NCBI GenBank assembly: GCA_018466975.1
Contig: CM031559.1
Location: 186,001-250,000, forward strand
DNA: 64,000 bases
Direction of reading: 5' to 3'
DNA from: Sparassis latifolia
Lineage: Eukaryota > Basidiomycota > Agaricomycetes > Polyporales > Sparassidaceae
Shown: positions 4,442-40,387 of the stretch, one piece after another
Numbering within the stretch: the first letter of the stretch is position 1
Layout: each line of letters starts with the position of its first letter
Notes under the pieces: generated by a model
Seen by the model: the letters and a program-made list of their open reading frames with translations, nothing else
Told to the model about the DNA's origin: nothing
Database searches by the model: none
Made by a program: the position numbers and the translations under genes

Positions 4442-4604
4442 ATGGTACTGCTTCCACCGCTCTCAGAGTCAGAGCACTTTTTCTGATGCTTCGTTGGTGC
4501 AGCCCGAGCTGCCCCCTTCTAACGTCAAGTGTGCGTCTGCCGCTTCTGGCGTCGGGGCGTGTTCGTACCCGAACTGCGCGTGTGGCGAGGCTCCGAAAGC
4601 TTAG
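4442..4604 (+). CDS. 34-residue four-cysteine mini-protein, copy A
   Basis: Exons 4442-4444 (ATG only) and 4503-4604; the intron is 4445-4502 (58 bp, GTACTG...TGCAG, branch-like CTGAT). The product is 34 residues with Cys at 11, 21, 26 and 28 (C-x9-C-x4-C-x-C) and C-terminus SGVGACSYPNCACGEAPKA. It differs from the other copies by Leu for Gln at residue 4. Unspliced, the reading frame meets TGA inside the intron, so splicing is needed here. Compared with copy F, about 17 codons differ synonymously and only 2 change an amino acid, which is strong evidence that the peptide itself is under selection. There is no signal peptide, membrane segment or CaaX box. A metal-binding (metallothionein-like) role is possible from the CxC motif, but four cysteines are few for that family and I do not recognise the sequence. 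Confidence 0.8.
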
Positions 4605-6290
4605 GTGAACCCACCTCATTGATCTACATGTCGCTCGAGAGTATCGACGTTGGAGCAGGGAGTGTTTGCAAGGAGAGAGTCGGATGGCAGTTGACAGGAT
4701 GCAAGTTGTTTGTATGAAACGAGAAGTGAGATAATGCGCTTGACCCGAAATTGTCGTTGCGTATGCTAAGATGTCGGTGTCGTGGTGAGGTCAGAGGCCG
4801 GTGCCGTGTTGATTGGATGGATGCAGGGCTCCTTCTCCCCCGCGTGTGCTGCGACTATTCAATACATCGGGCCTCAGGAAGGGTCGAAGACTTGGAACGA
4901 GAGCTTGCGTGCTATGCGACCATACGACTGACCGAATCCAGGTCGTACCGACTTCAAGTTCTTCCTCTCTTTTCACTTCTATTTCTTTTCTTCGTTTCTT
5001 CGTTTCTTCTCCAGGGTGTGTGACATGCCCCTTCTGTCCCGCGCTCAGTGGCATACCTGCGAGTGACATATCAGCATTTAACGACGATATTATCGTGCTT
5101 GTGTAGAGGACACTCGTGCCACTGCTGGCCGATGGGGCTGCCCCCGAAGCTCTCTCTTGCAGACATTGCTGTTCCTAGTCGTCTGGATGATCGCGTGTCG
5201 ACAGCTAGAGCGGTTATGTCTGATGGGCATGAGCTAGTGGTAGCTCACAACTGTGGAAGACAGTGTGGATGAGAAGACAGAATCAAGCCCAGGTAACGAG
5301 ATGGCAGGGCTTAGCGGCAGTCCACTTGGCAAGAACAGCGCCGGACTGAAGCCTGCGATAGTGAGTTGGGACAGAGGATCGGGACGTACATTAATACGGA
5401 CCCTGTAAAGTGTGTCTATCAGCAGGAACCGTGCGTACCGACACATTATATATACATCATTTACTCTCGTTGTCGTGGCGAGGCGTCAAAGGCTTCGATG
5501 CATCCACCTTACGTGCGATGGGCAGGCACTAAATTCATAACAAAGTGCATTGAGAGACCCGAAGGCTAAAGGAAAGTCGGATGAGGTAGTTGCGCAGATA
5601 TACAAGAATTTGAACCGCTGCTCCAGGCATATGCTGGGCCGAACTGTCCGACAGTAGTGAAGTAATACGATTCTACACGGTGTCGTGCGAACGTAGTGCC
5701 ATGCCATAGTTTGATTGTGTGCGAGTCGCTTCAGTGGAATATGATGCTGCCCTATCGCTGGAGAATAGCGGTCCACGGAACTTAAAAGGGTGAGTCGATG
5801 TGACTGGAGTAAAGGTACACGATAATGAAACGCACGTTGCATAGCGAGATCCCTCATAATACTCCTCTTCCACGAAATCCGCCGCGAGAGGATTATGCGC
5901 GACCCGCGGAACCTCCAGAATCTCGTCATCGCTCAGCTCATCTGCGTCTCTATCCTCCAACCCGTCGCCCGGCAAATTGCGCTCCGCGACATTACCGCCA
6001 TCAACGGGTGATGCCCGACGTGTTTTTCTGCACCGTACAGGAAGCTCAGTCGCCTTCGCACCGCAGATGCAACATAACACCCCAGGGTCCTTCGCGATGA
6101 TCTGATGCTATCTTCAAACACATTCTCCGCGCCAACACCGACCCCGTTCGCAAGGGCGACTACCACATCGGCCTGACGCGCAGACGAGAAGACATGCGTG
6201 CGCAAGGTACGTCTGGGCGATCTCGACATTTACAGCCCGAAGCGCGCTACAGACTGGCGGACCAAGGTGAACGCTGAGTTTCGTCCGTTT
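4605..6290. other. Intergenic, no gene recognised
   Basis: Only short frames without recognisable domains. A CT/TTTC-rich stretch lies near 4960-5015. The segment GGCGAGGCGTCAAAGGCTT at about 5477 slightly resembles the end of the mini-protein exon, but not enough to call a relic. Confidence 0.4.
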
Positions 6291-6636
6291 CGATGCATCC
6301 ATTGTTCGGCGGGTGTATGTACATTGCACACTCTGAGTAGTACCATTTCTGAGCTGGGTCGATCCAGGGTAATGCTTCGTTCTGAAAGAAACTGTAAATC
6401 ATTATTCTTTCCTGCGTCGCCCGTTGAGAACGATTGTCAGTGCGCACGACTGAGGTACAGAATCCGATCCTAGGAACGTGTCGGCGTCGCACCTTTCACT
6501 TCTAATCAAATCAAGGCCTTGGGATATGTCTGCTCAGCCAGGCCATAACGGCAGCGAAGCTGGTCCATCTGAAGCTATAGCGCAGGGTAGAAGTACTGGG
6601 TGGAAAACGCAGCGTGCTCACCATTAGCCGACTTCC

Positions 6637-6820
6637 TATTGGGTCCCGACAGCAGCGCTCTGCCGGGACCGTCCTCGATCGTGTGCACAGCGTGACGCAC
6701 CCCGATAGCCCATGCAAATGCGCTGGACTCGATTTGCTCTCTCGTCCGCGGCCCTGGCATCCCAACATGGTTGATCGCCTTATCGTAGCAGGTCCTGCAG
6801 CACCAGAGGAGGTATAAAAG
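6637..6820 (+). promoter_or_regulatory. Promoter of mini-protein copy B
   Basis: CCAAT box (CTATTGGG, 6636-6643), GCAAAT at 6714-6719 and ATTTGC at 6732-6737 with a 12-bp spacer, and TATAAAAG at 6813-6820, 95 bp before the ATG. The whole upstream block from about 6290 is repeated before copies C and D. Confidence 0.78.
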
Positions 6821-6914
6821 ACCTTCAGTTTCGACGGAGGGTCTCCACCACCCACTCACCCAACCGAGCCACACACCTAGTCTTCTACCACCACCACCAG
6901 CTTCAAAGTTTACA

Positions 6915-7070
6915 ATGGTGAGCAATCCACTGCACGTGCCCCGTGCCTTACTGATTCTTCCGATGCAGCCCGAGCAGCCCCCGTCCAACGTCAAGTGCGC
7001 GTCCGCCGCTTCCGGTGTCGGAGCGTGTTCCTACCCCAGCTGCGCGTGCGGCGAGGCTCCGAAGGCTTAG
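6915..7070 (+). CDS. 34-residue four-cysteine mini-protein, copy B
   Basis: Exons 6915-6917 (ATG only) and 6969-7070; the intron is 6918-6968 (51 bp, GTGAGC...TGCAG, branch-like ACTGAT). The product is 34 residues, begins MPEQPPSNVKCASA and has Cys 11, 21, 26, 28. It is identical to copies C and D and differs from E and F by Ser/Ala at residue 13 and Ser/Asn at residue 25. The intron length is a multiple of three and has no stop, so unspliced mRNA would add 17 in-frame, partly hydrophobic residues after Met. Function unknown; a small metal- or redox-active peptide is one guess. Copy C follows in direct orientation 1.9 kb downstream, within a repeated unit. Confidence 0.82.
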   Translation: MVSNPLHVPRALLILPMQPEQPPSNVKCASAASGVGACSYPSCACGEAPKA

Positions 7071-7269
7071 TGTCCCATCATCCCTCTTCGCGTGCGTTGG
7101 AGAGGGCGTTCATTGAATGTGCGAGGCGATGCAGAGATGTGTATGAGGTCGGAAGCAGCAGCAGCCGAAGTTGTTGGCCGAAGGGCCGCGGAGGTCGATG
7201 TTTGTGTAAAGGAGAATCCAAGTTCGTCGATTCAATTTGCGAGACGAGGGAGAGTACAATACGCGGTTC

Positions 7270-7293
7270 GGATGCAGCAGCAGCAGCAGCAGG
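7270..7293. repeat. CAG trinucleotide run
   Basis: Six uninterrupted CAG units downstream of copy B. The homologous positions after copies C (about 9173) and D (about 32990) have only two or three units, so the run expanded locally. It is not in a supported coding frame. Confidence 0.8.
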
Positions 7294-8530
7294 AGTCATC
7301 TGTCAACGGGACGGAGTTTTGACGTTTGTGTACCAAGAGGGCTCGTGATCCTGCCCACTTAGTCTCGATTCCAGACGTTGACGCACGGAAGCAGTCGAAA
7401 AAACCATTCGCTGAGACCATGGCGCGTTGGCCTTCGCTGAGGAGATGTTCTTCTGGACTGCTGCTCGGGGCAGTCGCCCCATCGAATGTAGGTGACATTT
7501 CACATCCAGGATCTGAATACTGGCGGGCGCCTGACGAGCAGTGTTCCACGACGAGCCACCGAGCGCACAGCGAAAGTCGTACCTGGCATGTCTGCCCAAC
7601 GTTAACGAACCCACACTGATTGGACGCGGTCCTCCAATCGCCGCTCTTCTCTGCATAGCGTCTTCCTCCTGTCTGCGCTATGATACGTTCAGGAAGTCAG
7701 GTACACCGAAGACGTGGACTGCGCGCTAGGCAACCGCACCACGATTGCCCCTTTTCTCTCGACTTTCAATTCTTCTTTGGTGTGTGGCACTCTCTCTTCC
7801 GCACTTGTTCTGGCGGCCTATTTATATATAATATGACGACGTTGGATAGGTGTGCAGGGGTGGCGTACCTTTATCGAGGACGTTGGGGGTGGGGTCAGGC
7901 ACCGTTGGACCATGCATTTGCGGAGACCAGGCGGCTGTTCTGCGGTGGTGGTGTTGCTTTGAACCGCTGCTCGAGGCAGTCGTCGCATAAGAGGTGGACC
8001 ATTAAACACTGTGCGTACGCGATGGAGATTTGAGGGTGGTGGCTCGCGCGTTCGTCCCCGGTTTGCGATAGGTTTCAATTTGAACAGCCAGCAGCGTACG
8101 TAGATGTCCATACGTCAGACTACTACTGCGTGCTGTCTCGAGACTGCATGAATTCTAAAGTTATGCCGGCCTGCTCTTCACATGCTGCCATTGTTCGTCA
8201 GGCGTATGTACATTGCCCACTCCGAGTGGTATCATTTCTAAGCAGCGTCGATTCAGGGTAACGTTTCGTTCTCGAACAAAATGGAACATATTTCCTGCAT
8301 CGCACGTTGAGAACGATCGTCAGTGCGAGTGAGGACGCACCACGGTCAGGTGTAGAATCCAATCCTAGGAACGTGTCAGTGTCGCATCTTTCACTTCTGG
8401 TCGAATCAAGGCCTTGGGATATGTCTGCTCAGCCAGGCCATAACGACAGCGAAGCTGGTCCATCTGAAGTCATAGTGCAGCGTAGAAGTACTGAGCGGAA
8501 AACGCAGCGTGCTCACCATTAACCGACTTC

Positions 8531-8715
8531 CTATTGGGTCCCGACAGCAGCGCTCTGCCGGGACCGTACTCGATCGCGTGCACAGCATGACGCACCCCGA
8601 TAGCCCATGCAAATGCGCTGGACTCGATTTGCTCTCTCGTCCGCGGCCCCGGCGTCCTAACATGGTCGATCGCCTTATCGTAGCGGGTCCTGCAGCATCC
8701 AGTGAGGTATTAAAG
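8531..8715 (+). promoter_or_regulatory. Promoter of mini-protein copy C
   Basis: CCAAT box (CTATTGGG, 8531-8538), GCAAAT at 8609-8614 and ATTTGC at 8627-8632 with a 12-bp spacer. The TATA-like element is TATTAAAG at 8708-8715, one base longer than in copy B, which may lower basal transcription. It is otherwise nearly identical to the copy B promoter. Confidence 0.75.
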
Positions 8716-8809
8716 ACCTTCAATATCGACGGAGGGTCTCCATCACCCACTCACCCAACCGAGCCACACACCTAGTCTTCTACCACCACCACCAGCTTCA
8801 AAGTTTACA

Positions 8810-8965
8810 ATGGTGAGCAATCCACTGCACGTGCCCCGTGCCTTACTGACTCTTCCGATGCAGCCCGAGCAGCCCCCGTCCAACGTCAAGTGCGCGTCCG
8901 CCGCTTCCGGTGTCGGAGCGTGTTCCTATCCCAGCTGCGCGTGCGGCGAGGCCCCGAAGGCTTAG
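8810..8965 (+). CDS. 34-residue four-cysteine mini-protein, copy C
   Basis: Exons 8810-8812 (ATG only) and 8864-8965; the intron is 8813-8863 (51 bp, GTGAGC...TGCAG, branch-like CTGAC). The predicted peptide is identical to copies B and D. The exon-2 differences from copy B that I found (TAC/TAT, GCT/GCC) are synonymous. The intron is again a stop-free multiple of three. The gene sits about 0.7 kb upstream of the gene starting at 9661, and both belong to segmental block 1. Function unknown; see copy A for the cysteine pattern. Confidence 0.82.
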   Translation: MVSNPLHVPRALLTLPMQPEQPPSNVKCASAASGVGACSYPSCACGEAPKA

Positions 8966-12250: not shown

Positions 12251-12466
12251 CTAAACCCAAGATGGGTCTGAGTTCGCCACGCAGCATTAATGACAAATCT
12301 GGTCCTTGGGTCTCCTCTTTGCTTCTTACTCCCATCTTAAGGCAACTTTCCCACGGTTCCAGCCAATAGGAGTAGGCTGCGACACCGTGGATCCTAGCAT
12401 CTTAAGAAACTTTCCACCTGCGAAACAAAGTAGTACATAACCAGATAGCACTAGACAGTCTCGACG

Positions 12467-14158
12467 ATGTCGCCGCAGCCGCCTGGCACGGCAGACACAA
12501 CCACCAGTAAACGCAGTCTGAGGTCAACAACCCCAGCACCATCGACATCTAAGCCCGAGTCTCAGAACAAGCTTGAGCTTCCAACGATGGCAAAGGTACC
12601 GTCGACGGAAGCAGCTATACAGCTGTTACTCAAAAACAAGCTCATTGAAGACAAGCACCCGAACGTGAAGAGCCTGGTTCAGGGTCTTTCGTTAATCGCT
12701 AAGTCGGCCTCCAAGGCCTCAGCTATGGTTGACATCATCACCGCTTTCGCTCACTATGCTAGTAGACTAACGGTGGAAGAAGCAGCTGGAAAGCTTATAG
12801 AACACGTTGTCCACAAGACGAACAACTCGTGGGGCTACCTTGACGACACGGCTACAGACTTCACGCAACTGGAGTCCAAGTTCGAGCTCCACGTCAATCG
12901 AACGGAAGTACTACTCTAGAAGCTCGAGGTCGAGCACAAAAACTCGGCGGAAAGAGCCTCTAGACTCGAACAAGCTGTCACGAAGATGATACAAACATCC
13001 GAAGAGATAGCAAAAGAACATACCAATCCGGTAGGTGCCGTGCCGCAACCTTCTGGACTGACATATGCTGCAGCCGTAACCCAAGTACTCCCGACCTCCC
13101 ATGCATCCACCCTCGCCCGCGAAGACATCCTAGCCAGCCAGGTCCTCGTTGACGGAGCCCCGGCCAAGAACGCCTCCGGAGCTATGCTCACAGAAGAGGA
13201 GCTCCTAGCGAAAGCAGAAATGGCATACAGCTTGATGGGTATCAAGGCATCAGACGCTCCCCCCTCCTTCGCTTTCCGCTCGTGCAAGAAACTCCGAAAT
13301 GGCGGGGTAGTATACAACATGAACAGCCCGACGTCGGCCAAGTGGCTACGTTCTACTGATGTCATGAAGACCTTTCTTGACCACTTCGGTGGTGGTAACT
13401 GCCAACTGAAGACACATACGTATGCCGTTATTGCTGAATTTGTCCCGATAGCCTGTTGCCCCGACGAACCCCACTACCTTCGAATTATTGAATCACGCAA
13501 CAACTACGACCCAGGTGACATCGAAAGTGCGCAATGGATTAAGCCTCCGGAATGCCGATCCGAAGGCCAACGTAAAGCCCACCTCATTATCCGTTTCACT
13601 AACCCAAAATCAGCAAACTCTGCACTCAGACAGGGCCTGATTATTGCAGGAACTGACATTTCAGCACGGAGACTCATTCCAGAGCCCCGCGGATGCCTCA
13701 AATGTCAAAAGATAGGAGTCCCACACTTTAGTGCAGACTGCAAATCCATCCATGACACGTGTGGTAAGTGTGCCTCTGTCGGGCACAGAACAGCTGACTG
13801 CCAGGAACTTGACCCAACCAACTACGGCTGTGCTAATTGCCAAGCCACGCATCGCCCAGACTGGAAGGGGCATGCCGCTTGGGACCGTTTATGTCCCATC
13901 TTCCTAGAAGAGCGGAAGAAGATGATGGACCGCCTCCCAGAGAGCAAGTACCGTTTCTTCCCAACTGCTGACCCCACTTCATGGGAACAGATACACGAGG
14001 TTATGCCAGCTCATCCAATGGCCCACACAACTGCATTCCCAGCTCGTACAATGACTAGCACCCAACCTTCGCAGTCTCGAGCTAAGCAGAAGTATCCACA
14101 AAGCTGGGCAGACGATGAGCCCCCAGTTACCTTTCACTTTCAGAATGGCAACAAATAA
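12467..14158 (+). pseudogene. LINE ORF1 (nucleic-acid-binding, three zinc-knuckle motifs), one nonsense codon
   Basis: A single frame of 563 codons broken only by TAG at 12917 (codon 151; CAG to TAG would explain it). The N-terminus is Ser/Thr/Pro-rich, followed by a helical region, and after the stop KLEVEHKNSAERASRLEQAV continues as a coiled-coil-like helix. The C-terminal third has zinc-knuckle motifs: CLKCQKIGVPHFSADC (about residue 410), CGKCASVGHRTADC (C-x2-C-x4-H-x4-C, about residue 432), then CANC with downstream His and Cys. ORF1 proteins of this kind coat the LINE RNA. A restart at the next Met (12986) would leave the zinc part but lose the N-terminus. Confidence 0.87.
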
Positions 14159-14300
14159 CCCTCGCAAGCTCAGCGGAAGCAAGCGTACCAAGCATCCCAG
14201 GGTCATCACGATACTAACCAAACACTAATCTATGACTATCTCAACCAAGCTGGCTCCTCCGAAGCAGCACATGACGGCCGCTCCCAACAATCTCTAGACT

Positions 14301-17300
14301 ATGCCTGAGTCCCATACTAACCCATCTAACTTACGTATTTGCCAACTGAATCTTAATAAGTCTTTAGATGCGCAATCCGCATTTTTAAACACGGTATCAG
14401 TCTGCGACTTCGACATTCTCCTCCTCCAAGAACCCTACCTAGATCATGCTAATATGAGTCATGCCACTCCTCACTGGCGAGTTGTATACCCCCCACGACA
14501 CCCACGTCCAGACACACGCACTCGCTCTATCATCCTCGTCAGCTCCCGACTCCCGACTAGCACATGGCGGGACCTACAGGTTGACTCCCCTGACATCACT
14601 GCTATTACAGTCAACTCGGATATAGGCCCTCTGCACATATTTAATGTTTACAATGACCAAGGGCATCAACAGACTCTACACCTGCTAAGTCAAAGCACTC
14701 GCAGTCTTAGCTTAGACCACACTAACAACGATCAGCAGGGACATATCATCTGGGCGAGAGACTTCAACCGACACCATTCTATGTGGGACGAGGAGCACAA
14801 CCACCATCTTTTCACAGACCAAGCACTAACCCTTGCACAGCCGCTTCTAGATGCAATAGCATCATTTGGCCTGGAGATGCTGCTTCCTGCAGCCACCCCC
14901 ACGCTTCAAGCTTCAGGAACGAAGAATTTTACCCGCCCAGATAATGTCTTTGGATCAGATTCACTTGAGTGCAGGCTGACTTCCTGCGATGTAACTCCAG
15001 AGCTCCGTCCCCCCAAAACGGACCACTTTCCCATTTCCACATCCATCGATGTCTCCGTACATCATGAGGAGTCTGAGAGACGTCGCAACTTTCGTAATGT
15101 CGACTGGCCGGAATTTCGTCACACTTTGCAAGAACAGCTTGCCAGTGCCCATGCACTGACCAGAGAAATCCAGTCTGTGGAGGACTTCAACTCCATCCTG
15201 ACTTCGGTAATGCAAGCAGTGGAATACACCATTGACGTTCATGTCCCCGTGTCTACTCCTACTCCCTACACGAAATGATGGTGGTCCAGAGAGCTCAGCT
15301 CAATGCGGAAACAAGTAAGACACCTCACTAAATGTTCTTACAAAGCCAGGTCCAACCCTCATCACCTGATACACATGGAGTACCGTTCAGCTCGAAACCA
15401 TTACATGGACCGGATCAGGACCGCAAAGCGCGACCACTGAGAGGCCTGGCTGGAGTCGGCTGATAGCGACTCAGTCTGGACAATCAACAAGTTCACCCAA
15501 GCTGACCCTACAGATGGGGGCAGGACCCGGATCCCACCACTCATGCCGACAAATGGTGTTGGAGAGCTGATATCAGACAACTAAGGTAAAAGCGAAATTC
15601 TTTACGACGCTTTCTTTCCCCCTCCAGGCATGACCGCGACTCCACCAACCGATGTCACCTACCCACCTCCTGCATTCCTCTTCACTCCACCAACAGATGC
15701 CCAAATAGAAGCTGTAGTTAAACGGCTCAAAGACTTCAGGGCGCTGAGTCCGGACAAGACCCCGAATGAGGTATACAAGCGGTGCATCGACATCTTACTC
15801 CCTTACTTAGGACCACTATTCCGAGCGACCTTCTCTTTGAAGATATACCCCAGCAGTTGGAAGATCTCCGACACAGTCATGCTCCGCAAGCCAGGTCGGC
15901 CTGACTACATGGCAGCAAAAGCATACAGACCCATCGCTCTCCTAAACTGTGTTGGCAAGATTCTTTCCGCCTGTGTCACAGAGACACTGGTACACGAAGC
16001 AGAGTTGAATGACTTACTAGCAAATGGACACATTGGAGGCAGACCAGGCCGTACCACTACGGATTCCCTACACCTTCTGGTAAAGACGGTGAAAGATGCA
16101 TGGCGCCATCATAAAGTCGCATCTATCCTTTTCCTGGACATTAAAGCAGCTTTTCTGAGTGCTCTCCCAGAACGTCTTCTCCACAATATGCGCATGCAAG
16201 GGGTCCCAGTGGAGATTGTAGACTGGATCCGGCATCGCCTAGAAGGACGCCACACCCACTTAATTTTTGACGACTTCACCTCAGCTATCTTCGAGATTCT
16301 CAGTGGCATAGATCAAGGCTGCCCCCTCTCCGTCATCCTGTACCAGTTCTACAATTCGGACCTACTGGACTCAGCCAAGCTCGCACTCGCACTGGGACAC
16401 ATTGATGACGTGGCCCTCATAGCGACAGGTTCGAATTTCGAAGAAACACATGACAACCTACGGCATTGTATGGATCACTCGGACGGAGCCATGATGTGGT
16501 CGGCAGACCACCAATCTGAATTCTCGCTAGACAAATTCGGCCTGCTGAACCTCTCAGCGAGGCTTCCATCACTAGGCCCAGCCCTCCAGTTACGTTCCTG
16601 CACAGTACAGCCCACGTCAACATACAAGTTTCTCGGTGTTCTTCTCGATCACCACCTTTACTTCCACAAACACACAGCATACGCGCTCACTAAAGGTATG
16701 ACATGGGTACAGCAGTTCCGCCGCCTCGCCAAGGCAAAGTCAGGCATCCCCTACTCATACATGCGATGCCTGTTCATCAGTGTCACTGTACCCCACATGC
16801 TGTATGCAGCGGATGTCTTTCTAACACCCATGCGCACCCTTCCCAGACAGTTGAAGACACACAGATCTGTATCAGCGATCAAGTCTCTCGCTCGCGTTCA
16901 GCGACAAGCAGCTCTGCTCATCACGGGAGCACTTTCATCCACAGCCACAGACACTCTTAATGCACATGCCTCCCTTCTTCTGTTCCGCCTTCTCGTTGAC
17001 AAGGTCTGCCACAGAGCGGCTGCCTGACTCTGCACTCTTCCCCCGTCACACCCCCTACACGACCAAGTCGCACAAGCTAGCACCCGCTATGTCAAGAGCC
17101 ACTGCTCCCCCCTACATGAGCTCCTCCATGCATACCAGATCTTCCCAGGGAACATGGAGAAGATACAGCCAGTATGCTTACACCCTACTTGGACACTGAG
17201 ATTTTAAGTCGAGGTTGCTCCCAGCAAAGCAGAGGCATTAGACAGCGAGTTGAAATGGGCTGATGCAGGAGGGATCCGAGTATACACCGACGGATCAGAC

Positions 17301-18239
17301 ATTGATGCGGGAGTTGGAGCCTCTGCGGTCCTATACCATCCTGGGTCCAGCACTGTCAAGGTACTTAGATACCATCTGGGCCCATCGTCAGAGCACTCGG
17401 TCTACAAGGCCGAAGTAGTCGGCCTTGTCCTGGCCATCCACTTATTGAAACGAGAAATCAGTGTACAGTCGGCCTCCTGTGCTGCCGACAACAAAGCATC
17501 CATCCTCGCTACGAAGCTGCAAAAACCAGCACCAGGCCACTACCTGATCGACATGCTCCATCATGATGTTGACGCACTCTACCGCACGCATGCCATCGAT
17601 CGCTGCAACCTAACCTTCCATTGGGTACCAGGTCACAAGGACGTCGAAGGAAACGAACGAGCAGACAAGGAAGCCAAAGTGGCCACGCGAGGCAACTCCA
17701 GTCCATGAAATTGCCTCCCGCAGTCCCTGCACAGCCATCTCCCAACCAGTGTTTCAAAAGTATGCCAATATCACATGACACGGCTGAAAGAGACTGCACA
17801 GATGCACTGGAGGGAATCCGAATGGGGACAGAAGTTTGCATGCATCGATGCCTCTCTCCCATCCAAGAACTACAGGAAGCTCATAGTGAATCTCCCCCGA
17901 TGACATGCCAGCCTCCTCATGCAACTCCGAACAGGTCACGTTGGCCTGAACCAACACCTACATCGCATCCGCAAGACTCCGAGTCTGATATGCCCACCCT
18001 GTCATCTCGCCTCCGAGACCGTTCAGCACTTCCTTCTCACTTGCACAGCATACACCGGCCAATGACATGCACTCCACCTGGTGCTCGGCTGTGCTGCGGG
18101 ATCCTTGTCGCGACTACTCACCAATCCGAAGGCTATGAAACCGCTTTTTTGCTACATCCACGCCACCGGTAGATTCCTAGGCATATTTGGCCCTCTCGAC
18201 AGTTCAGACAAACGGTCCAACGACCTACCAGAGAAGTGA
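14301..18239 (+). pseudogene. LINE ORF2 (endonuclease, reverse transcriptase, RNase H, zinc C-terminus), eight nonsense codons
   Basis: One frame of 1312 codons. Domains in order: an exonuclease-endonuclease-phosphatase fold (residues about 5-260: LRICQLNLNKS, LLLQEPY, RDFNRHH in place of the usual GDFN, TDHFPI); reverse transcriptase (about 460-800: YRPIALLN, LFLDIKAAF, GIDQGCPLS, and HIDDVAL at about 700-706 with both catalytic Asp residues); RNase H (about 990-1130: YTDGSD, YKAE, AADNKA, WVPGHKDVEGNERAD); and a C-terminal zinc motif (CPPC...HFLLTC, about 1231). Premature stops are at 15276, 15438, 15582, 17025, 17205, 17706, 17901 and 18063; the natural stop is at 18237. The reading frame is never shifted, so point changes alone inactivated it. 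Confidence 0.9.
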
Positions 18240-23475: not shown

Positions 23476-24243
23476 AAACGTGTGCAAGTCGACCACAGTC
23501 TTCTTATTTTGCTTCAACAGACGAAGGCTTGGCCGTCCGACCTGCGTGAGTGGTTTATCTTCTACTATACGTATATAGTTAAGCACTATCGCACGACTAG
23601 CACCGTGGGCTTAGCGCTGATACTGCCAGCAGAAGTGCCCGCTGAGTCGGCAGAAAAGTCGCAGACTCCAAAAGCCAGATATGTGAAGAGATAGCATGGC
23701 CTTGTTTCACCTCAAACTAGATATACCCAGTGCTCTCCTTGGTGCACATTCGCAGCGACTACGGTTATCTGTTCACTCCTTTACCGCAACACTGAGGAAA
23801 TTCACATACTGTATTCCGATATTGCTTCCCGCGCACTCAACTTTCGATTCCAGGTCCTTCCTTCGAATGGGTGGGGAACGTAATTCTGCTGTGTGTATCT
23901 ATCATCTGAGTGAGACAAAGTTTGAACAGGTCCCGGAGATGTGGATCACGAGTAAGTTTTCTCTACACATCTCTACTTTCAGGCTATTGTACTGTACGTT
24001 GCTCAGATGAGAAATCTTATGGATTGCATGCGCCGGTATTTCGTCTTGTTATCTCACCGTGCTGATATGAGCATTCTTTTCAGTTGTTGCGTGATACGCA
24101 AAGAGACAATGCAGTTGTGGCTCATAGAGTCACTGCCATGTGACCGAGCTCGTTCATCGCCACTCACTTGGCCACTGCTGGTTCACTAGTCACTCCTTTA
24201 CGTCCATCATCTCGCGGGTCAACCAACGCCAAGCAATCAAGAG
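23476..24243. other. Intergenic region upstream of kinase gene 1
   Basis: Short frames only (for example 23482-23694, 70 codons), with no recognisable family. The last 100 bp probably contain the kinase promoter and leader. No clear TATA box is seen. Confidence 0.4.
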
Positions 24244-27128
24244 ATGGCGACTCCCTCCCCACCCAGTTCCAAGGAATTTCTCCCCGAACCCGTTACGCCT
24301 CATCGTCCGTCGCGGAAGGTAGTCGTGGCGGCCACACCGACCACTCGGAACGAGAATGGCGTTCAGCAATGGGGTTTCGGGTCAAAACTCGCCAATGACC
24401 GATACGAACGATATTCCCAGGAAGCAGAGCGTTATATTTTAGGCCCCATGCCTGTAGAGGACTTTTTGGATTTCTTGCCAGAGGCACCCACAAAACGGCC
24501 GAATGCTAGGAACGCATTCATTGATGTTCCAGAACGGGCAGAAAAGGAGAAGGATATCTATACACCTCTGGTATGTTTACTTGACTCCGATAGAATGGCA
24601 CCGCTGAGTGAAGCTCCAGATTGCGGCGCTCAACGCCGAATTGAATGGCCGGAAACGCTGTCCTGGGTTTGTTTTCCTGGATACCTCGTCACGAGGCACC
24701 AATCATGGAAAACCTGGGTCGGTGAAGCCTGATGTGGTTTGTTATTCCACGGAGATTGTCGACTCGGTTGACACTAACAAGACGACGGACGAGCCCATCG
24801 GCGATCTTAGTTTCGCAGACTTGTATATTGAGGTAAAGGGACGACCTGAACAGGATTGTTTTACAGATCCATCACCCAACAGCGATCGCGCTGCACACAA
24901 GTTCGTCCTGAACATTACTGGTGAAAGAAAGCTCGAGCAGGCCAGGCACGATCTCGGACAGAATATCGCATACGCAGTTGATGCGTTTGCACGCCAGTAC
25001 CGCACGCGGTACTTTTCGGTGTCATTATCCGGGACATTAGCTCGTCTCATCCGGTGGGACCGTGGGGGCGTGATGGTATCGGAATCGTTTGATTTGCGCA
25101 AACGACCAGAGGCACTCTGCGAGTTCTTGTGGCGATATGCGCATGCGTCGGGAGCGAAGCGCGGGTACGACTGTACCGTCGAATGTGCGACAAAAGAGGA
25201 GGAAGCGTTGTTTGAGGAGTCCATCACGCGCCACGTCAAATTACAGCTGGACCTCGAAGATATGGCGCAACTAGTTGGGAAGCAAAAGAAAGCTGCTGAA
25301 AAGGAACTGGCCGCCGGAGTGGATGAGCATTTTGAGCGAGGCACTGTGGCTGCGATCACCGTCGTTGACCAGAATTCGAGAAGGCGCCGACTGCTGGTAT
25401 CTCGGCCAGTAGTCTCACCTCTTACATTGGCCAGTCGTGCCACTCGCGGGTACTGGGCGGTGGCGGCCGACGAAGAACGAGGAAGGGTTGTCTTCCTGAA
25501 GGACACATGGAGGTACACTGCGGACGGCATACGAAAAGAGGGTGATATATTGGCAGAGCTACAGGATGCTGAGGTACCGCAAACCCCGCAATTGGTCCAT
25601 CATGGAGACGTCCCAGAGCAATGCCCCATCTCGGATGGCACAGATATAGAAGGAAAGCTACGTGAACAGACAGGTATGTTTTCAGAATTGCCATCTTGAA
25701 TCTCCATCTAATCTACGTACAGCTTTTCAGTGCACCTTTACTCCGAGATACCAAGATGCAAAGTGGGTGTGCAAGAATGGGAAAGCTAAGATTCCAGTAT
25801 TTGCTCAGGTACATTACAGGCTAGTATTAGGCACTGTGGGTTATGGTCTGCAGAGATTCAAGGGGACAAGAGAACTTCTTAGCGGTACCTACGATGCGTA
25901 TCAAGGTATGTGGCCTCATTCCTATGTGTCACTGCTATTCTCTCATTTCCTTCTGCATTATTATTCAAGCTATGCTGGGCGCGTTCTACATGGACGACCA
26001 AACAAAGAGTAGGCTTCATCGCGATATCAGCCTAAGTAATATTATCCTCGTTATGGATCCGATGACGCGGATAAGGCGCGGCTACTTGATTGATTGGGAA
26101 CTGTCCTGTCTTATTAACAACACAGGAGGGACTCGGGATTACAGAAGGACGGTGAGCTAACACAGTGTGTTCTAATCATGCAAGTACTCATCGACGGATC
26201 TCTGCAGGGAACATTTCAGTTCATATCACAACGCATGCTGCGCTACGAGAATGTTGCTCACACGATCCAGGACGACATGGAGTCAATCCTCTGGGTCGTA
26301 CTCTATTGCAGCTTGCTGTGGTTGGATCACGATCTGCCAGTGAAAAAACTGGTCACAACGATGTCCACTATTTTCGACCAATGCAATTCATTCGAGGACG
26401 GTGAAACTACGGCTGGTGATGGCAAGGTCAGCAATCAAGTCTCCCGATTGTACACAAGCAAGATCCATTTCTCGAACCCGAAGATTCAAGAGTGGTTGAA
26501 TGCAGTCATGAATTTCAACTCATCCTATGTGTTTAATTGGCCGCTGAACGCGACATTTTTCAAAGCCTGGGAGGATCCTCGAACACTCGATAGATACTGG
26601 AAGGCTTTCCTGGGCGACAACGAACTGCTTACTGCGGACAGGATATCTCGTGTATTGCCTCTGAAGCAAGCACCTCGGAACGACCCAGGCAGAGCGACGC
26701 CGCACCCCGCGACTAGGACAATGTCTACCCTTCCTATCCATGACTTTACCATGCCCCGGATGTCAGCATTGCAATTGGGATCAATTCGATCTGGGGTGAA
26801 GCGAAAGGCAGAAGGCATACCCTCCGATGCTGGCCTCCCAGAGCTGAAGCGCAGCTTTGTGTCAGGATTTAGCGGCTTCAACGCGGGCCCTGTGACCCGA
26901 GGAGCCGCGGCAAGGGCCCAAGCACAGTCATTCGCACCTAACGGACTTGTGGCACGAGCGAGGGCAAGACGAATGCTCAGCAACGTAGAGTCAAGCAGCT
27001 CTAGTATGCAGAGACAGCATGCTGGCGCTGCCTCTTCGAGCCGGCGTGCAGGCTCTACGCAAACACTGGAGAGGGGCGCTCATTTCAAGCAAAGTTTCGG
27101 AGCAGGTGGCGCGAGAACAAGGAAGTGA
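24244..27128 (+). CDS. FunK1-type fungal protein kinase, gene 1
   Basis: Five exons: 24244-24570, 24620-25673, 25723-25905, 25970-26151, 26208-27128 (888 codons). All introns are GT-AG, 48-64 bp, and phases agree. Intron positions match gene 2 exactly. The middle and C-terminal halves resemble the FunK1 family of agaricomycete protein kinases: an ATP-lobe-like stretch (GYWAVAADEERGRVVFLKDTWR), QVHYRLVLGTVGYGLQRF before the catalytic loop, the catalytic loop LHRDISLSNIILV with its Asp and Asn, and LIDWELSC where other kinases have DFG. After AHTIQDDMESILWVVLYC, typical of FunK1 C-lobes, comes a basic Ser/Arg-rich tail of about 130 residues. No membrane segment is visible. The first acceptor could be 6 bp earlier (exon 2 from 24614). 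Family substrates are unknown. Confidence 0.88.
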
Positions 27129-27880
27129 CTTATGTCTTGGTAATGCATGTTCTACGGAGTCGCACCTTCCAAACTGTATGCATAATCCATATGTATGATT
27201 GTAGCGTGAATCAGAATTTATATTATTGCTATATGCACAAGGCGCGATTTGTCGCATTACTTGAAGCTTGAAGCCTGAGCGCTGAGCTAATGCGTTACAA
27301 GTATGAAGTTCGCTCAACTGTCAGAGGATTTGCGCTATGTAGGACCGAACTAACCCAAACGCCTGAACAATACGTAATCCGGTGGCGACTCATCTATCGT
27401 GTGTGGGCCTGAAGTCGGCGAGGAACCGCGAATTATGCGAAGGTGACGGTGGGCAGCTGGAGCCTGTAATACCAGATTTCACGCAGCGATCAACAGGTGA
27501 GCATACTACTAGTAATAAGCCGTGGTTGTCCCGCTCCGAGAGCATTGTATAGTAGGTCGCCACAAGAAATCAAATGTTATGGGGGTGATGTTCTTACAAC
27601 GAATATAAATACGGGTGGCCAAAAGCTAGTTGACAGGACAGAGCTTCGATGATACATTACCGAAACACAACTTTTCCGAGAATTTCGGTCACGCACGGTG
27701 GGCACGTGACCGTGGCGCGGTGACAGTGGCACAGTGACCATGGCGCGGTGACAACGGTGGCGGCGGTTGAAAGACCACAACAACATCGCTTCTCCTTCAA
27801 CCGACTACTTCATCCTCGCTGGCTCTTCAAATCTAACCCTTCTCGGTTATACTACCTGCCGTTTCGCGAATATTTCCATT
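27129..27880. promoter_or_regulatory. Intergenic region and promoter of kinase gene 2, with a four-unit 14-bp repeat
   Basis: Mostly unremarkable spacer. Near the gene, four units of a 14-bp repeat start with GTGAC at 27706, 27720, 27734 and 27748 (consensus GTGACCATGGCGCG); the first overlaps a CACGTGAC E-box-like site. The run ends about 120 bp before the ATG, so it may be a transcription-factor array. Confidence 0.55.
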
Positions 27881-30582
27881 ATGGCCACACCGCTCGCCAG
27901 GAACGACCCGGAATACGAAGTGTGGCAACAGCAGCATGAGGACTTCGACTCCAAGGATGCCAAAAGGCGCTACCACCAGTATGCAAATTCCGCCAAGACA
28001 CACATTCTTGGCCCAATGCCTGTCGACGAATTTCTGGAGTTCTTACCTGAGACAGATACCTCCATGATGCCGCGTACCACCGATGCTTTCAAAAGGGTCC
28101 CGACAGAGGCGAGAACAGAACAACAAATCTATAAACCACTGGTCAGTTGACTGTTCTGCTAAGTACAACTTGGTTTTCTGATAGACCAGCAGATTAATGC
28201 ATTGAATGGCACGAAAGCGGGCGCTAGGAAATCTCGGCCTCGGTGTCCTGGATTCACGTTCAAGGAGACTTCTATGTCTAGCGTTGATCGCGGGGAGATT
28301 GGGTCAACGAACGCCCATGTCTGCTGTTATTCCGAAGACGTTAACGATGCTCACTTGGCGTTGGTAGCCTCTCTTGGTTGCGCTGATTTGCACATCGAAG
28401 TACAGCGACATCCCACTTTCGACCCCTTCACGGATCCAGCTCCCGATGCTGATCGCTCCTCACACAACTTCACTCTCAACACTGTTGACGACCGTACTCA
28501 CAAGCACGCCGAAGAAGCACTGGGTAGGAACGTTGTATGCGTAATCGAAGCGTGTGCTCGTCAACACCGCGCTTTCTACTTCTCGATTTCGTTGGCCGGG
28601 TCTCGTGCTCGCCTCATACGGTGGGACCGCTGCGGAGCCATCGTTTCAGAATCATTCGACATTCGTGCTCAGCCCGAACCGCTTTGCGAGTTCTTGTGGC
28701 GATATGCCCACGCTTCAAAATCGCAGCGCGGCTACGATGTGTCCGTCGAACCTGCGACTCGAGACGAGGAGGAACTCTTCAGAGAGTCCATCAAATGCCA
28801 CGTCAAACTCCAGCTGGATCTCGACGGGGAAGACTTGGTCGCTGCGATGGAGGAGCACTACCAGCCTGGCGTCGTTGTTGCGGTCAACATGGTCGACGAG
28901 GGCTCTCCGGGGCATGTGGCGCGCCGACTACTCATCTCTCGGCCGGTGGTGTCACCCCTCTCACTGACAGGCCGAGGAACGAGGGGTTACTGGGCGGTCA
29001 CCGCCGATGGCCCAAGAGGTGAGATGGTGTTCTTGAAGGATACGTGGCGATACAACGGCGGTGGACAACAAAAGGAGGGTGATATCTTGGCGGATTTGCA
29101 GGGTGCTAGGGTGCCGAATATTCCGCGGTTAATCTCTCACGGAGATGTCCTAGAGCGGTTGCCCATCGTGAATGGGATGGACGAAGACATGGAGGACGGC
29201 GACGTCGAAGAGCTATGTGAGTTTTCACATATTGTTGACCTCTATTCGTGTGTGATACGCTGACGACCAACATACAGCTCTGCAGCGCACGCTGACCGAT
29301 CGCTTTCAGCAAGCGCACTGGGTTTGCAAGCGTGAACAAATTCCGCAGCTTCCGCTCGTACATTACCGATTAGTGTTGGGCACCGTTGGTTATGGGCTGC
29401 AGCGCTTCCAAGGCACGCAAGAGCTTCTTCGGGGGACGTTCGACGCGTACCAAGGTGTGCATAATAATCACCTTGACTGCTATGCAACTCCTCACTTTCT
29501 TCTCCATGTCCGAAGCTATTTTGGGAGCTTTCAACCTGGAGGATGTCACGAAACGTAGGTTGCACCGTGACGTCAGTCTAGGCAACATCATCCTCTTCAG
29601 GGATCCGAAAGCAACGGATACGAAGAGGTATGGCTATCTGATTGATTGGGAGCTGTCGTGTTTGGTGACAGATGAGGGTGAGGCTTGCGAACACACAAAA
29701 GCGGTGAGATTTATGCTGATCTGAATCACCATATGAACGCCTGCTAACGAGCATTGGTAGGGCACCTTGCAATTTATGTCGCAACGCATACTGAGCCATG
29801 ATAATGTGGCTCACACGATCCAGGACGACATGGAGTCTATCCTCTGGGTCGTACTGTACTGCAGTTTGCGATGGTTGGATCACGATTTGCCTTTGGAAAA
29901 GTTGGCCAAGAAGATGGTCTACATTTTTGACCAATGCGTTGTCTACGACCATGGCAATTTCGTGGGTGGCGATGCCAAGCTCCGCAATCAGTTGGATCGG
30001 GGTTACACGAGCAACATTCATTTTTCAAATCCGGCGATTCAGCAATGGCTCGACGAAGTCATGAAATTTAACTCGTCCGCCGCGTTTCCTCACCTTTGGG
30101 ACGAAGCGTGTGCGGAGGTCTGGAAGGATCCCACGAAGTTTAACGCATTTTGGCGGGACTTCCTCAGAGATCATGCGATTTCCGACAGCGATAGAGTCTC
30201 GCGAAAGTTAACTCGACCTGACGACAAAAGGTACCATTGGTCATCATCAACCATTTCGTCTACCTCTGCAACCGAGCATCCCGCACCTGCGGCATTGCCT
30301 TCACGGAAGAGAAAGGCGGTCGACGAGCCCCTTGGTGCGGAACCAGAGAAGACGGCCAGCTCCCGAGTACCCACAGTGCCTCGTGGAGCTTACACAGGAC
30401 CTATCACGCGCTCGATGGCGAAGCGGAGACAGATCGAAGGCCAAGGACAGGGCGTCGCAGTGGGTGGCTCGGATCTGCCGATACAGCCTCAGTGGAGCCC
30501 TCGACGTTTGAGGCCTCGTCCAGCGAAGGTCGACAATACGAGCCTTGCGCGACATGGTCGCAAGGTTCGCCGGTCGAAATGA
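27881..30582 (+). CDS. FunK1-type fungal protein kinase, gene 2
   Basis: Five exons: 27881-28141, 28193-29216, 29278-29454, 29516-29703, 29761-30582 (823 residues), a direct paralog of gene 1. The N-terminal motif ILGPMPVDEFLEFLPE is shared with gene 1 (ILGPMPVEDFLDFLPE). It keeps the nucleotide-lobe segment (GYWAVTADGPRGEMVFLKDT), the catalytic loop LHRDVSLGNIILF and LIDWELSC, then AHTIQDDMESILWVVLYC. Relative to gene 1, the segment before the third exon lacks about ten residues present in gene 1 (around KKAAEKELA). The tail is basic and ends GRKVRRSK, possibly a nuclear localisation signal. The ATG at 27881 aligns with the paralog structure; an upstream in-frame start at 27767 is less likely because it lies in the promoter repeat. 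Confidence 0.88.
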
Positions 30583-32403: not shown

Positions 32404-32560
32404 CCCATTGGATCCCGACAGCAGCGCTCTGGCGGAACCGTCTTCGATCGTGCCCGCGCAAACGCGCTGGACTCAATTTTTCTCATCCGTGGCCCTGGGG
32501 TACTAACATGGTCGATCGCCCTATCGTAGCGGGTCCTGCAGCATCCAGTGAGATATAAAA
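32404..32560 (+). promoter_or_regulatory. Promoter of mini-protein copy D
   Basis: CCAAT-type element (CCCATTGG, 32404-32411). The inverted repeat is degenerate: GCAAAC at 32458-32463, and the second half reads AATTTTTC instead of ATTTGC. TATAAAA is at 32554-32560, 95 bp before the ATG. This copy may be regulated differently from the others. Confidence 0.7.
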
Positions 32561-32654
32561 CACCTCCAGCATCGTCGGAGGCTCTCCATCACCCACTCAC
32601 CCAACCGAGCCACACACCTAGTCTTCTACTACCACCACCAGCTTCAAGTTTACC

Positions 32655-32810
32655 ATGGTGAGCAAGCCACTGCACGCGCCCCGTACCTTACTGACTATTC
32701 CGATGCAGCCCGAGCAGCCCCCTTCCAACGTCAAGTGTGCGTCCGCCGCCTCTGGCGTCGGAGCATGTTCCTACCCGAGCTGCGCGTGCGGCGAGGCCCC
32801 GAAGGCTTAG
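32655..32810 (+). CDS. 34-residue four-cysteine mini-protein, copy D
   Basis: Exons 32655-32657 (ATG only) and 32709-32810; the intron is 32658-32708 (51 bp, GTGAGC...TGCAG, branch-like CTGAC). The peptide is identical to copies B and C although the DNA differs at several third positions (for example CCT/CCG, TGT/TGC, GCC/GCT). The intron is stop-free and a multiple of three, as in B and C. Function unknown; the Cys 11/21/26/28 pattern is kept. Confidence 0.82.
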   Translation: MVSKPLHAPRTLLTIPMQPEQPPSNVKCASAASGVGACSYPSCACGEAPKA

Positions 32811-36406: not shown

Positions 36407-37053
36407 TGGTCTCGTACCCCGACGTGAGCGAGTAACGCACCCCACCACCGCCCTCGCTCTGACGTCTGGGGCATTTCAACCGTGACACCCCCCCTTGCTC
36501 TTATCAGCCCTAAGCGAGATTATCTGAGCCCGCGCCATCAATCATCCTGCCTAAATCGGCAATTCCTCTACGCTTCCTCTGACTTTCGAGCCATGATATC
36601 ACCGCGTGCACATACTGTTGTAGCAGTCATTCTTTGTAATTAGCATAGAAATACTATCTTGACAATGTACATGTAGTTTAATGAATTATATGAGGGATTG
36701 CGGCCACAGAAAACATGAACTAACTGCAGACTCTACTTACTTTCCTTGGTTTCTCACAGAGGTGTCTCAATCCTACTTATTCCTCTCGCGAGGAAGCTCA
36801 TATTGCATCACTTTTATATTTCTGCATGATTACATGGCCTCCTCGCGGGCAATGCCTCCAAAAGTTGAGTATGAATCTCGACATCGAGTCTCTGTGCCTT
36901 CCCGAAAAGGCAGGATGATTGATGGCGCGGGCTCAGATAATCTCGCTTAGGGCTGATAAGAGCAAGGGGGGGTGTCACGGTTGAAATGCCCCAGACGTCA
37001 GAGCGAGGGCGGTGGTGGGGTGCGTTACTCGCTCACGTCGGGGTACGAGACCA
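36407..37053. mobile_element. Long-TIR non-autonomous DNA transposon, member 2 (647 bp, 8-bp TSD)
   Basis: Terminal inverted repeats of about 145 bp (36407-36551 and 36909-37053), nearly perfect, begin TGGTCTCGTACC like member 1 and share CACCCCACCACCGC and GTCTGGGGCATTTC. A perfect 8-bp duplication TCCGTCGC flanks it (36399-36406 and 37054-37061). The 357-bp interior has no transposase and little visible similarity to member 1. The better-preserved TIRs suggest it inserted more recently than member 1. Confidence 0.9.
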
Positions 37054-37061
37054 TCCGTCGC

Positions 37062-37243
37062 AGCGTTTCGGATCCAGCTCCGTTTCGCTGACATTTCAAA
37101 TCTGAACGACTTGAGGGTTGGGATCGGCTCGATCATGGGTACACTCTTCGACGATGTAGGCCCATTGCCCGAGCTCTTACACACGGTGCCGCAGCCGCTC
37201 CTGGAGAAGGGGGAGCTGGCCGCTCTCCGCACCCGGCAGGAAT
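37062..37243 (+). pseudogene. Right half of the reading frame split by the long-TIR element
   Basis: Continues the frame from 36360-36406 and ends at a TAA at 37243 (ELAALRTRQE). It includes GIGSIMGTLFDDVGPLPELL. No family recognised. Confidence 0.35.
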
Positions 37244-37480
37244 AAGCACACTGACCTGGAGATCGACAGATTTTTCCAAGTGCGCGCAGATCACAACGTA
37301 GCTCGACCTCTCGATCATGAAACTCTGATTTTCTTTTATACAAACAACAAATCTCCGCGCTCCTTCAACGACTGCAGCCACATCCGAACTTCCTCCGAAT
37401 ATCATACATCCTGCAAATCTCTCCTCGCACGCGACTCACTCAACACGTACTCCTCCACGGACGTCACGACGCGAAGGCAT

Positions 37481-37648
37481 CTAAGCCTTGGGGGCCTCGC
37501 CGCAGGCGCAGTTGGGGTAGGAGCAAGCTCCGACGCCGGAGGCGGCAGCGGCGCACTTGACGTTGGAGGGGGGCTGCTCGGGCTGTAAGAAAAGTTCGCA
37601 AAAATCAGATAATGTGTCTATGAGCCGCCGTAGATAGCTGCGCACCAT
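37481..37648 (-). CDS. 34-residue four-cysteine mini-protein, copy E
   Basis: Minus strand: exon 1 is the ATG at 37648-37646, intron 37645-37583 (63 bp, GTGCGC...TTACAG, branch-like CTGAT), exon 2 37582-37481. The peptide is identical to copy F: Ala at residue 13 and Asn at residue 25, Cys 11, 21, 26, 28. The intron is a stop-free multiple of three, so a 96-codon open frame (37771-37481) runs through it; that longer frame is less likely to be the protein because copies A and F have stops in the same intron. It is the only intact copy on the minus strand. Confidence 0.82.
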   Translation of the reverse strand: MVRSYLRRLIDTLSDFCELFLQPEQPPSNVKCAAAASGVGACSYPNCACGEAPKA

Positions 37649-37744
37649 GGTAAGTTTTGGTTGAAGCTGGGTGTGGTATGAAAGGGGTGTAGTGGTTGGC
37701 TGGCTCGGTGAGTTGGTGATGGAGAGTCTGAGGCGAGTCTGCAG

Positions 37745-37964
37745 GCCTTTTATCTCTGGATTGACGATCACGGCGATGTCCGATGAGCTTCCGGCCCGTC
37801 CCTGTTATCTACCCGTTATCTTGCGCCGCGGAAGGAGATAGCGAATCCAGTTCAGCGCATTTGCTCAAACATGATCGTGCCGCCGAATCTGCAAACGATC
37901 TCAGGATACGGTCAGGACCTCCACGTTCAGAGCATTGGAGTTTCTATCGTCAGAACCCAATAGG
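37745..37964 (-). promoter_or_regulatory. Promoter of mini-protein copy E
   Basis: On the minus strand: CCAAT box (CCTATTGGG, about 37963-37955), GCAAAT at 37864-37859 and ATTCGC at 37846-37841 (one mismatch in the inverted repeat), and the TATA-like GATAAAAG at 37754-37747, about 100 bp before the ATG. The block ACCATTAGCTGACTTCCTAT before the CCAAT box is shared with copies B and C. Confidence 0.75.
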
Positions 37965-38049
37965 AAGTCAGCTAATGGTGGTCACGCTGCGTTCATCGCA
38001 CGTAGGGTCCACGCATCTTCACGCCTAACGCAACTGGAGGTATTCTGAA

Positions 38050-39880
38050 TGCACGGACAGTGCTACTAGCGTTAGAAGGCCCAGCTTCTGTGACGTTATC
38101 CCCTTGGCAGACATATACCAAGCACTCTATTCGACAGGTCATGTGGTGGTACGATTGAGGCCTACTGAGTACTGAGTGCCGAATATTGAATACTGAGCAC
38201 TATAGTCCCATCGAGAGGCTCGGCGGTAGCATGAGTGAACGAAATAATATAATGTTTCCATCAGACTCCGCAGCTGACCGTGGCGCGTTCGAGCTGACAA
38301 TCCTTCTTGCCTAGAAGACCCAAGTGTGACACAGACGGAAAGAGTTGCATAGGCTGAAATCAAAAAGATCAACGCTGCCCGAAAATGGTCAAATAGCTAG
38401 TAGAGCTGTACGAATGATGAGCGCTGAGCATGAAATAGAAAGACTGATAACGATGGTTTTCACGCAGACTCAAGGCTCACCTCAGAGAAGTGGTGACAGC
38501 TGGTCGACAGCTGCCTCCTCTAGCCTGACACTAGCCTGATACCCCAGAGCGACTGACGAATGATCAAGCGCCAGTCTGTCCTCACTATTCATTTTGGGCG
38601 GGGACAACGCTCTCAGCTTTCTCAACGGCATTGTTCCAGAATCAGCGAGGCTTGTCACGCGTAGAAGGTTCTTGAGGAGCACCGCCTCCAGCCTTTGTTC
38701 CAAACCGGCCCAGACAACAGTCGCGCATAGCCTGAACCAACTGCAAAGACGAGGCACTGGTCGACCGCCTGATGTCGCCCATGCGCACTCACCGCTGCCA
38801 CATGGCATGTCTAACGTCGCCCGGTGTCACTAGGTACGAGGATGAGCGCAGATGGGATGCCAGTGGTCGTCAAATGCCGAGGGAGATAAGATAAGTCGAG
38901 ACAGGTGGACATAGTCAGGGGTACGCACTGCCTGGCGCCCAAGTTATCTTACACATTCGAATTCTTCTGCGGGCCTGACTTCACGTTGAATATAGTCGGC
39001 CGGTCAGCAAGACCATGCCAAGAGGAACAACTACTCAACTGTGCAATGCCCAATCAATACGGATTCATTCCACAGATAAGCTGGTCCTGACTTCAGTTTC
39101 AGGCGGTCCTTTCGCGCGAAGTAAAATGAGACCATTCCGCTGGATACCGACTGCTCCCGTCGTACTCGCTAGCATTCCTGTTCTTCTGGATCATGAGGTA
39201 TTGCCATCTTCTTCTGGGGTCAATTCGACAGCATCTTCTAGCTAAAGGATGGTGTTCGACTGAGGCTGGAGCATCGGCATTTCGTCATGAAATTGTCAAG
39301 TCTCAGAAAACCTGCGCGCTGATCAGTGAGGTGACGATATCAGATAGCACAGGCAACACATAGACAGAGATAACATGACGAAGAATGGAAGAGTAAGCAG
39401 CATCATGATCAAGAACCTTGCGAACAGCGAACCCTGACGAACCTTGGAGTTTGAATTTTGGACATGCGACATCCAGGAAGCTCTTCCAATAGAATAAAAC
39501 AGAGGTCAGGTGCCGCAGCTCGGACGCTGTAATGACGGTCTATTTCTCAGGCTAGATTCGCCAGACCCACCAGTAAGTAACCGACAGAAGCTGCGATAGC
39601 GACGGCCCAATACCAAGTTCATTCTGTGCACGTCGCTTCAAGAATACCTGCACTCGGTTCAAATGCGGTCTCAATTCGACCGCTGGAGGAATGAGTGGAG
39701 GAGTTGGGTGAAGCGCAAGGACACGATGCACCGTGACGATTGTCGTGGTGTGGGGCTGAATTCCTCTGCAGCGAAGAAGACAGACTCCAAGAGAAGAAAA
39801 ATCACAATGTGCGTGTAAGGCTCCAGCGTGACACACTTGGCCCACGCTGCCCTAGAACATCTCAGCGAGACCATTAGCTG
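38050..39880. other. Intergenic, no gene recognised
   Basis: Only short frames on both strands (up to 108 codons) without domains. The left end has short ACTGAGTACTGAGTGC-like repeats at 38163-38200. Confidence 0.4.
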
Positions 39881-39885
39881 ACAGC

Positions 39886-40130
39886 TTATTGGGCCCTTAC
39901 AAGACCCATTATGAACGTAGAGGCACCGACCTTCCGCGAGATCGTTTGCAGATTTCAGCACAGCTTGATGCGTTACGATCACGATTGTGCAAATGCGCTG
40001 GACTCGATTTGCTATCTCGAAGTGCGGCCCAACGTCTCCTAACGTGGTAGATCGCCGCATGATAACGGGTACCCCGGCTGGAGGCTCATCGGATATCGCC
40101 TACGGCACGCAGCTTCCAGCAGGTATAAAA
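39886..40130 (+). promoter_or_regulatory. Promoter of mini-protein copy F
   Basis: CCAAT box (CTTATTGGGC, core 39888-39892), GCAAAT at 39989-39994 and ATTTGC at 40007-40012 with a 12-bp spacer, and TATAAAA at 40124-40130. The gap between the inverted repeat and the TATA box is about 35 bp longer than in copies B and C. Confidence 0.76.
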
Positions 40131-40221
40131 GACCTGCGAATCGACTGAGGCTCTCCATCACCAGCCTACACAACCAGCCAAACCCCACAGCCTTCTATCA
40201 CCCCCTCGAATAAAACCTATC

Positions 40222-40387
40222 ATGGTGCGCGGCGGTTAACAGTGGCTGAGACGGATTTTAGCTGACGTTCTGATTTTTCTTACAGCCCGAGCAGCCCCCC
40301 TCCAACGTTAAGTGCGCTGCCGCCGCCTCCGGCGTCGGAGCTTGCTCCTACCCCAACTGCGCCTGCGGCGAGGCCCCCAAGGCTTAG
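40222..40387 (+). CDS. 34-residue four-cysteine mini-protein, copy F
   Basis: Exons 40222-40224 (ATG only) and 40286-40387; the intron is 40225-40285 (61 bp, GTGCGC...TTACAG, branch-like CTGAC). The unspliced frame stops at once (TAA after five codons), so splicing is required. The peptide equals copy E. Codon third positions are C/G-biased (GCC, TCC, CCC, TGC), suggesting high expression. No signal peptide, no transmembrane segment, no prenylation motif. Confidence 0.82.

Follow-up and report, generated by a model that had tools for sequence, protein, structure and literature searches.

Small genes encoding nearly the same 34-residue peptide, with four cysteines, form a multi-copy family in Sparassis latifolia. 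In every intact-looking copy the first coding exon is predicted to be an ATG alone. Comparison of the copies strongly supports both this gene model and selection on the peptide.

Copy number and genomic setting

The window is the whole stretch of DNA analysed, 64,000 nucleotides of contig C8 (C8:186001-250000). The original prediction placed six copies here, each with an intron immediately behind the start codon and a second exon of 102 bp. All six were found exactly where they had been placed (Table 1). Each has a GT-AG intron straight after the ATG, followed by a 102-bp exon 2 that ends with TAG. We then searched the 41.4-Mb genome, comprising 22 contigs, with the exon. At least 16 copies were identified, genome-wide copy counts being lower bounds for large families. 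The E-values of the 16 matches ranged from 5.4e-16 to 1.1e-4, so that the similarity is far above chance. Contig C8 carries fifteen of the copies, from 118482 to 226384, and the remaining copy is at C5:2594517. The C8 array is spread over 108 kb and contains genes in both orientations. Among the 16 copies listed, 12 look intact and four look decayed. The window holds six of the 16, all intact-looking, and at least 10 more are outside it. Hence, the initial observation was correct and the family is larger than first described.

Table 1. Positions in the window of the six gene copies and their promoter elements
Copy	Span	Strand	ATG	Intron	Exon 2	TATA-type box	23-bp element
A	4442..4604	+	4442-4444	4445-4502 (58 nt)	4503-4604 (with TAG)	TATA 4340-4346	4248-4270
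B	6915..7070	+	6915-6917	6918-6968 (51 nt)	6969-7070	TATA 6813-6819	6714-6736
C	8810..8965	+	8810-8812	8813-8863 (51 nt)	8864-8965	TATTAAA 8708-8714	8609-8631
D	32655..32810	+	32655-32657	32658-32708 (51 nt)	32709-32810	TATA 32554-32560	32458-32480 (one mismatch)
E	37481..37648	-	37646-37648	37583-37645 (63 nt)	37481-37582	GATAAAA 37748-37754	37842-37864
F	40222..40387	+	40222-40224	40225-40285 (61 nt)	40286-40387	TATA 40124-40130	39989-40011

Other features of the window were also recorded. Remains of a non-LTR (LINE-like) retroelement occupy 12455-17708 (+), with endonuclease (PF14529) and reverse transcriptase (PF00078) frames. By eye, the element also includes a CCHC-like gag frame, with no Pfam match, and an RNase H-like frame. 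Adjoining genes at 24190-27128 and 27752-30582 (+) contain Pkinase_fungal (PF17667) in frames 24608-25696 and 28163-29260, respectively. Two long leucine-rich frames, at 43060-45228 and 51232-53128 (+), look related to each other and F-box-like by eye; Pfam gave no match for the parts searched (43729-45225 and 51962-53125). Elsewhere in the genome, the laccase gene stretches at C1:583466 and C1:730545, separated by 147 kb, agree at 3193 of 3198 positions. This reflects either a recent duplication or an effect of assembly. A laccase exon resembles solved fungal laccases, such as the Trametes entries 1kya and 1gyc. Together with the two Pkinase_fungal frames, this is in keeping with an agaricomycete, though no proof of one.

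Gene model and promoter

The 12 intact-looking copies share one arrangement. The ATG is directly followed by an intron of 50-63 nt, of the form GT...CTGAY...AG, and then by 33 codons and TAG. The CTGAT or CTGAC site is 13-24 nt before the intron end in all 12. In five of them, the length of the intron cannot be divided by three. Alternatively, the peptide could be made from unspliced RNA. Read in this way, the first ATG is in frame with the peptide, and the path to it free of stops, in five of the 12 copies. An in-frame ATG within the intron could reach the peptide in six, of which three overlap the first set. Neither route is available in four copies. Hence, splicing is required for these four, and for seven if only the first ATG is considered. 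For the other eight, an unspliced peptide with extra N-terminal residues is possible, so the ATG-only exon there rests on the shared splice signals. Since it is unable to yield the peptide in four of 12 copies, we rejected unspliced translation as a general model.

Upstream of the ATG, by 95-104 nt, is an exact TATA[AT]A in 10 of the 12 intact copies; the other two have TATTAAA and GATAAAA. All 12 are free of ATG in the 80 nt leading up to the start. An inverted CCAAT (ATTGG) is aligned in 11, and is lacking only from the C5 copy. Further upstream, at 194-233 nt in the six window copies, sits a 23-bp block, GCAAAYRCGCKGRACTSRATTYG. In several copies this starts with GCAAAT and ends with ATTTGC, which by eye is an inverted repeat. 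Allowing up to three mismatches, the element occurs at 16 places in the genome; 14 of these precede a family copy (12 intact and two decayed). Since the family supplied the pattern, it matches the family by construction; the result is its rarity elsewhere. A control using the backward pattern gave no match in the whole genome.

The two places outside the family, on C9 and C13, both have three mismatches. No similar gene was found in three frames of the 1.3 kb downstream of either, nor did C-x9-C-x4-C-x-C occur in any of the six frames of the two 3-kb loci. With only these two outside places, and no similar or co-regulated gene found at them, we rejected the idea that the element controls a wider regulon. 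Counting inside the element only, GCTG is present in eight of 12 intact copies and GCGG in four. The sequence GCTG is the core of Ace1/Cuf1-type copper sites.

The decayed copies bear on the gene model. In those at 118482 and 182860 (C8, outside the window), ATA replaces ATG. Otherwise, their peptide is well kept, with all four cysteines. These two copies may be decayed or may be started by other means. The copy at 143345 has indels and is without an ATG at the start site, and that at 150909 has GG at the acceptor in place of AG. Thus the ATG is lost in three of the four and the AG acceptor in one. A box of the form [TG]AT[AT]AAA, a pattern widened to fit two of the intact copies, is near the leader in 12 of 12 intact copies and absent in three of the four decayed ones. 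However, the copy at 182860 has CATAAAA at about the usual place and may therefore retain a box. The 23-bp element, again at up to three mismatches, is missing from 150909 and 182860 and present in the other two. Start codon, splice site and promoter hence tend to fail together, which supports the gene model, with four cases only. It may be that these four copies are translated from another start.

Selection on the peptide

The 12 intact copies encode M-PE(Q/L)PPSNVKCA(S/A)AASGVGACSYP(S/N)CACGEAPKA, a peptide with a mass of 3.3 kDa that has four cysteines in 34 residues, one C-x-C and one fixed tyrosine. The near-constant peptide and its C-x9-C-x4-C-x-C spacing, first described for the window copies, extend to all 12. 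Exon 2 residues vary only at positions 4 (L/Q), 13 (A/S) and 25 (N/S). The 30 fixed residues of 33 include proline, tyrosine, lysine and glutamate in addition to the four cysteines.

A comparison of nonsynonymous and synonymous change across copies had been proposed with the original prediction. We compared the 12 intact copies in 66 pairs, which are not independent of each other; pS was 0.402 and pN 0.020, indicating strong constraint on the peptide. Copies A and F had been said to differ by about 17 silent codons and two replacements, and our count by hand agrees. By the Nei-Gojobori method, this pair has 18.0 synonymous differences over 25.5 sites and 2.0 nonsynonymous differences over 73.5 sites. 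The resulting dS is 2.1; between some copies, synonymous change approaches saturation, with the protein almost fixed. Third codon positions account for 23 of the 26 variable columns. Mapped by parsimony onto a tree built from the flanks, the changes comprise five nonsynonymous and 53 synonymous steps (binomial test, expected nonsynonymous fraction 0.71-0.75, P < 1e-22); although the flanks align poorly in places and the tree is approximate, the synonymous excess is not in doubt. Judged from these codon patterns, selection on the peptide is strong. Together with the GT, CTGAY and AG signals of all 12 copies, the constraint at codon level bears out the prediction of a selected peptide behind an ATG-only first coding exon.

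Two other explanations for the conserved exon were considered. A non-coding RNA was rejected; no Rfam family reached its gathering score in the window, and the distribution of changes over codon positions points to a protein. Alternatively, the copies could be recent products of gene conversion, or duplicates carried by transposons, with the peptide incidental. The retroelement remains lie between window copies, and for some pairs a similarity of about 80-89% extends over 1-1.6 kb of surrounding sequence, as such an origin would have it. However, the almost fixed protein at an A-F dS as high as that above, and the concentration of variable columns at third positions, count against it. Moreover, sequence drift sets in within tens of bases of the exon, in introns and flanks alike, and this speaks against recent conversion. 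We regard incidental duplication as highly improbable.

Possible function and relation to metallothioneins

Database searches placed the peptide in no known family. A Pfam scan of two of the four intact peptide variants found no family up to an E-value of 10, using models that may not cover agaricomycete metallothioneins. A search of the PDB gave no significant match; two IscU/NifU chains at an E-value of 1.1 were taken as chance. The degenerate DNA for VGACSYPxCAC had no occurrence in viral contigs. In the literature, searched by title and abstract with most subscription journals outside scope, we recognised no such four-cysteine family. Twin CX9C mitochondrial proteins carry two CX9C motifs. 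This class was rejected, the peptide having only one C-x9-C.

Metallothioneins are the obvious comparison. Briefly, PMC12508003 gives metallothioneins in general a cysteine content of 13-35 mol%, defines the AcMT orthologs of agaricomycetes by a heptaCys motif, C-x4-C-x-C-x2,3-C-x-C-x4-C-x-C, and describes a short class of up to 35 residues. At 34 residues, the peptide is within the length of that short class (PMC12508003). Its cysteine content, 11.8%, is under the general range given there, and the heptaCys motif is absent, C-x9-C-x4-C-x-C taking its place in all 12 intact copies. In the same source, short agaricomycete metallothioneins (AcMT2, PiMT1, AsMT2 and kin) are alike in having about 32-35 residues, a C-terminal C-x4-C-x-C, introns of about 50 bp and genes duplicated in several species. 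In contrast, they have seven cysteines rather than four, and AcMT genes have three or four exons whereas the genes here have two coding exons (PMC12508003). As motif, cysteine content and exon number differ, the peptide is not to be filed as a metallothionein. It may nevertheless work like one. The metallothionein-like metal binding originally suggested from the cysteines is thus upheld in part: the four invariant cysteines, the C-x4-C-x-C and the size fit, but the lack of a heptaCys motif and the low cysteine content do not, and neither of the two variants scanned matched a Pfam model.

Could the peptide be a true metallothionein that has diverged and lost three of the seven heptaCys positions? 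Its C-terminal C-x4-C-x-C coincides with the final three cysteines of the motif, and its short length and introns of about 50 bp are as in AcMT genes (PMC12508003). However, on our own reading of the motif, C-x9-C fits no subset of it without an indel, and the exon number given for AcMT genes in that source is against it. In addition, no intermediate was found in the genome using three metallothionein Pfam models, which may not cover agaricomycete metallothioneins: PF12749 and PF00131 each gave one match below the cut-off, at loci that were unconvincing as metallothioneins on inspection, and PF12809 gave none. A query with the copper metallothionein of Agaricus bisporus had no match in the genome, a result that carries no weight. 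No heptaCys motif turned up in 190 kb of contig C8, where introns could hide some; eight looser C-x-C...C-x-C stretches in the same 190 kb were judged by eye to be chance. Descent from a heptaCys metallothionein is therefore unlikely.

We tentatively favour a dosage-amplified family that encodes a probably cytosolic peptide with a small metal- or thiol-buffering role. A spliced mRNA with the ATG-alone first coding exon is predicted to give the 34-residue product. By inspection of its start, MPEQPPSNVKC..., there is no hydrophobic stretch that would serve as a signal peptide, as secreted small cysteine-rich proteins have, so that a cytosolic location is likely. The fixed cysteines of the C-x4-C-x-C favour thiolate metal binding. 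Hence, the four invariant cysteines, three of them in this motif, would bind a single ion of Cu(I), Zn or Cd through their thiolates. TATA promoter and copy number favour high output, and the 12 intact copies would supply the amount of peptide. The CUP1 metallothionein arrays of budding yeast are alike in being multi-copy arrays of a small cysteine-peptide gene. They differ in that the array here extends over 108 kb, its copies are old, diverged and of either orientation, and its peptide has few cysteines.

The spacer residues are under constraint equal to that on the cysteines. This is unusual for a chelator, and the one fixed tyrosine likewise counts against metal binding. The strict spacers would suit a fixed fold or a partner, not a floppy chelator. 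Consequently, the odds of a structured microprotein with a different partner come close to those of a metal buffer. Here, the peptide would be a sequence-specific cytosolic regulator or complex subunit, with cysteines that hold structural zinc or form a redox disulfide, and amplification would serve dosage rather than the buffering of metal. That 30 of 33 exon 2 residues, including proline, tyrosine, lysine and glutamate, are fixed despite the synonymous divergence is consistent with this. So is the 23-bp element, with just two three-mismatch places outside the family, so that no metal regulon shows. Conversely, no partner, fold or domain match was found, and a dozen intact copies would be unusual for a stoichiometric regulator. 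We hold this to be a realistic possibility, short of probable.

Returning to metal binding, the genes could, more speculatively, represent a new family of fungal metal-thiolate mini-proteins distinct from the heptaCys metallothioneins. Such proteins would combine a one-metal, four-cysteine site and a fixed fold with their own promoter operator, and draw dosage from an expandable array. Annotation easily overlooks genes whose first coding exon has 3 nt and whose second has 102 bp. The 12 intact-looking copies, under strong constraint at codon level, indicate that a family of this kind can be real and numerous. If it is true that the four cysteines buffer metal, the scope of fungal metallothionein-like peptides widens. 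If they do not, the genes encode a highly constrained microprotein whose role is directly testable.
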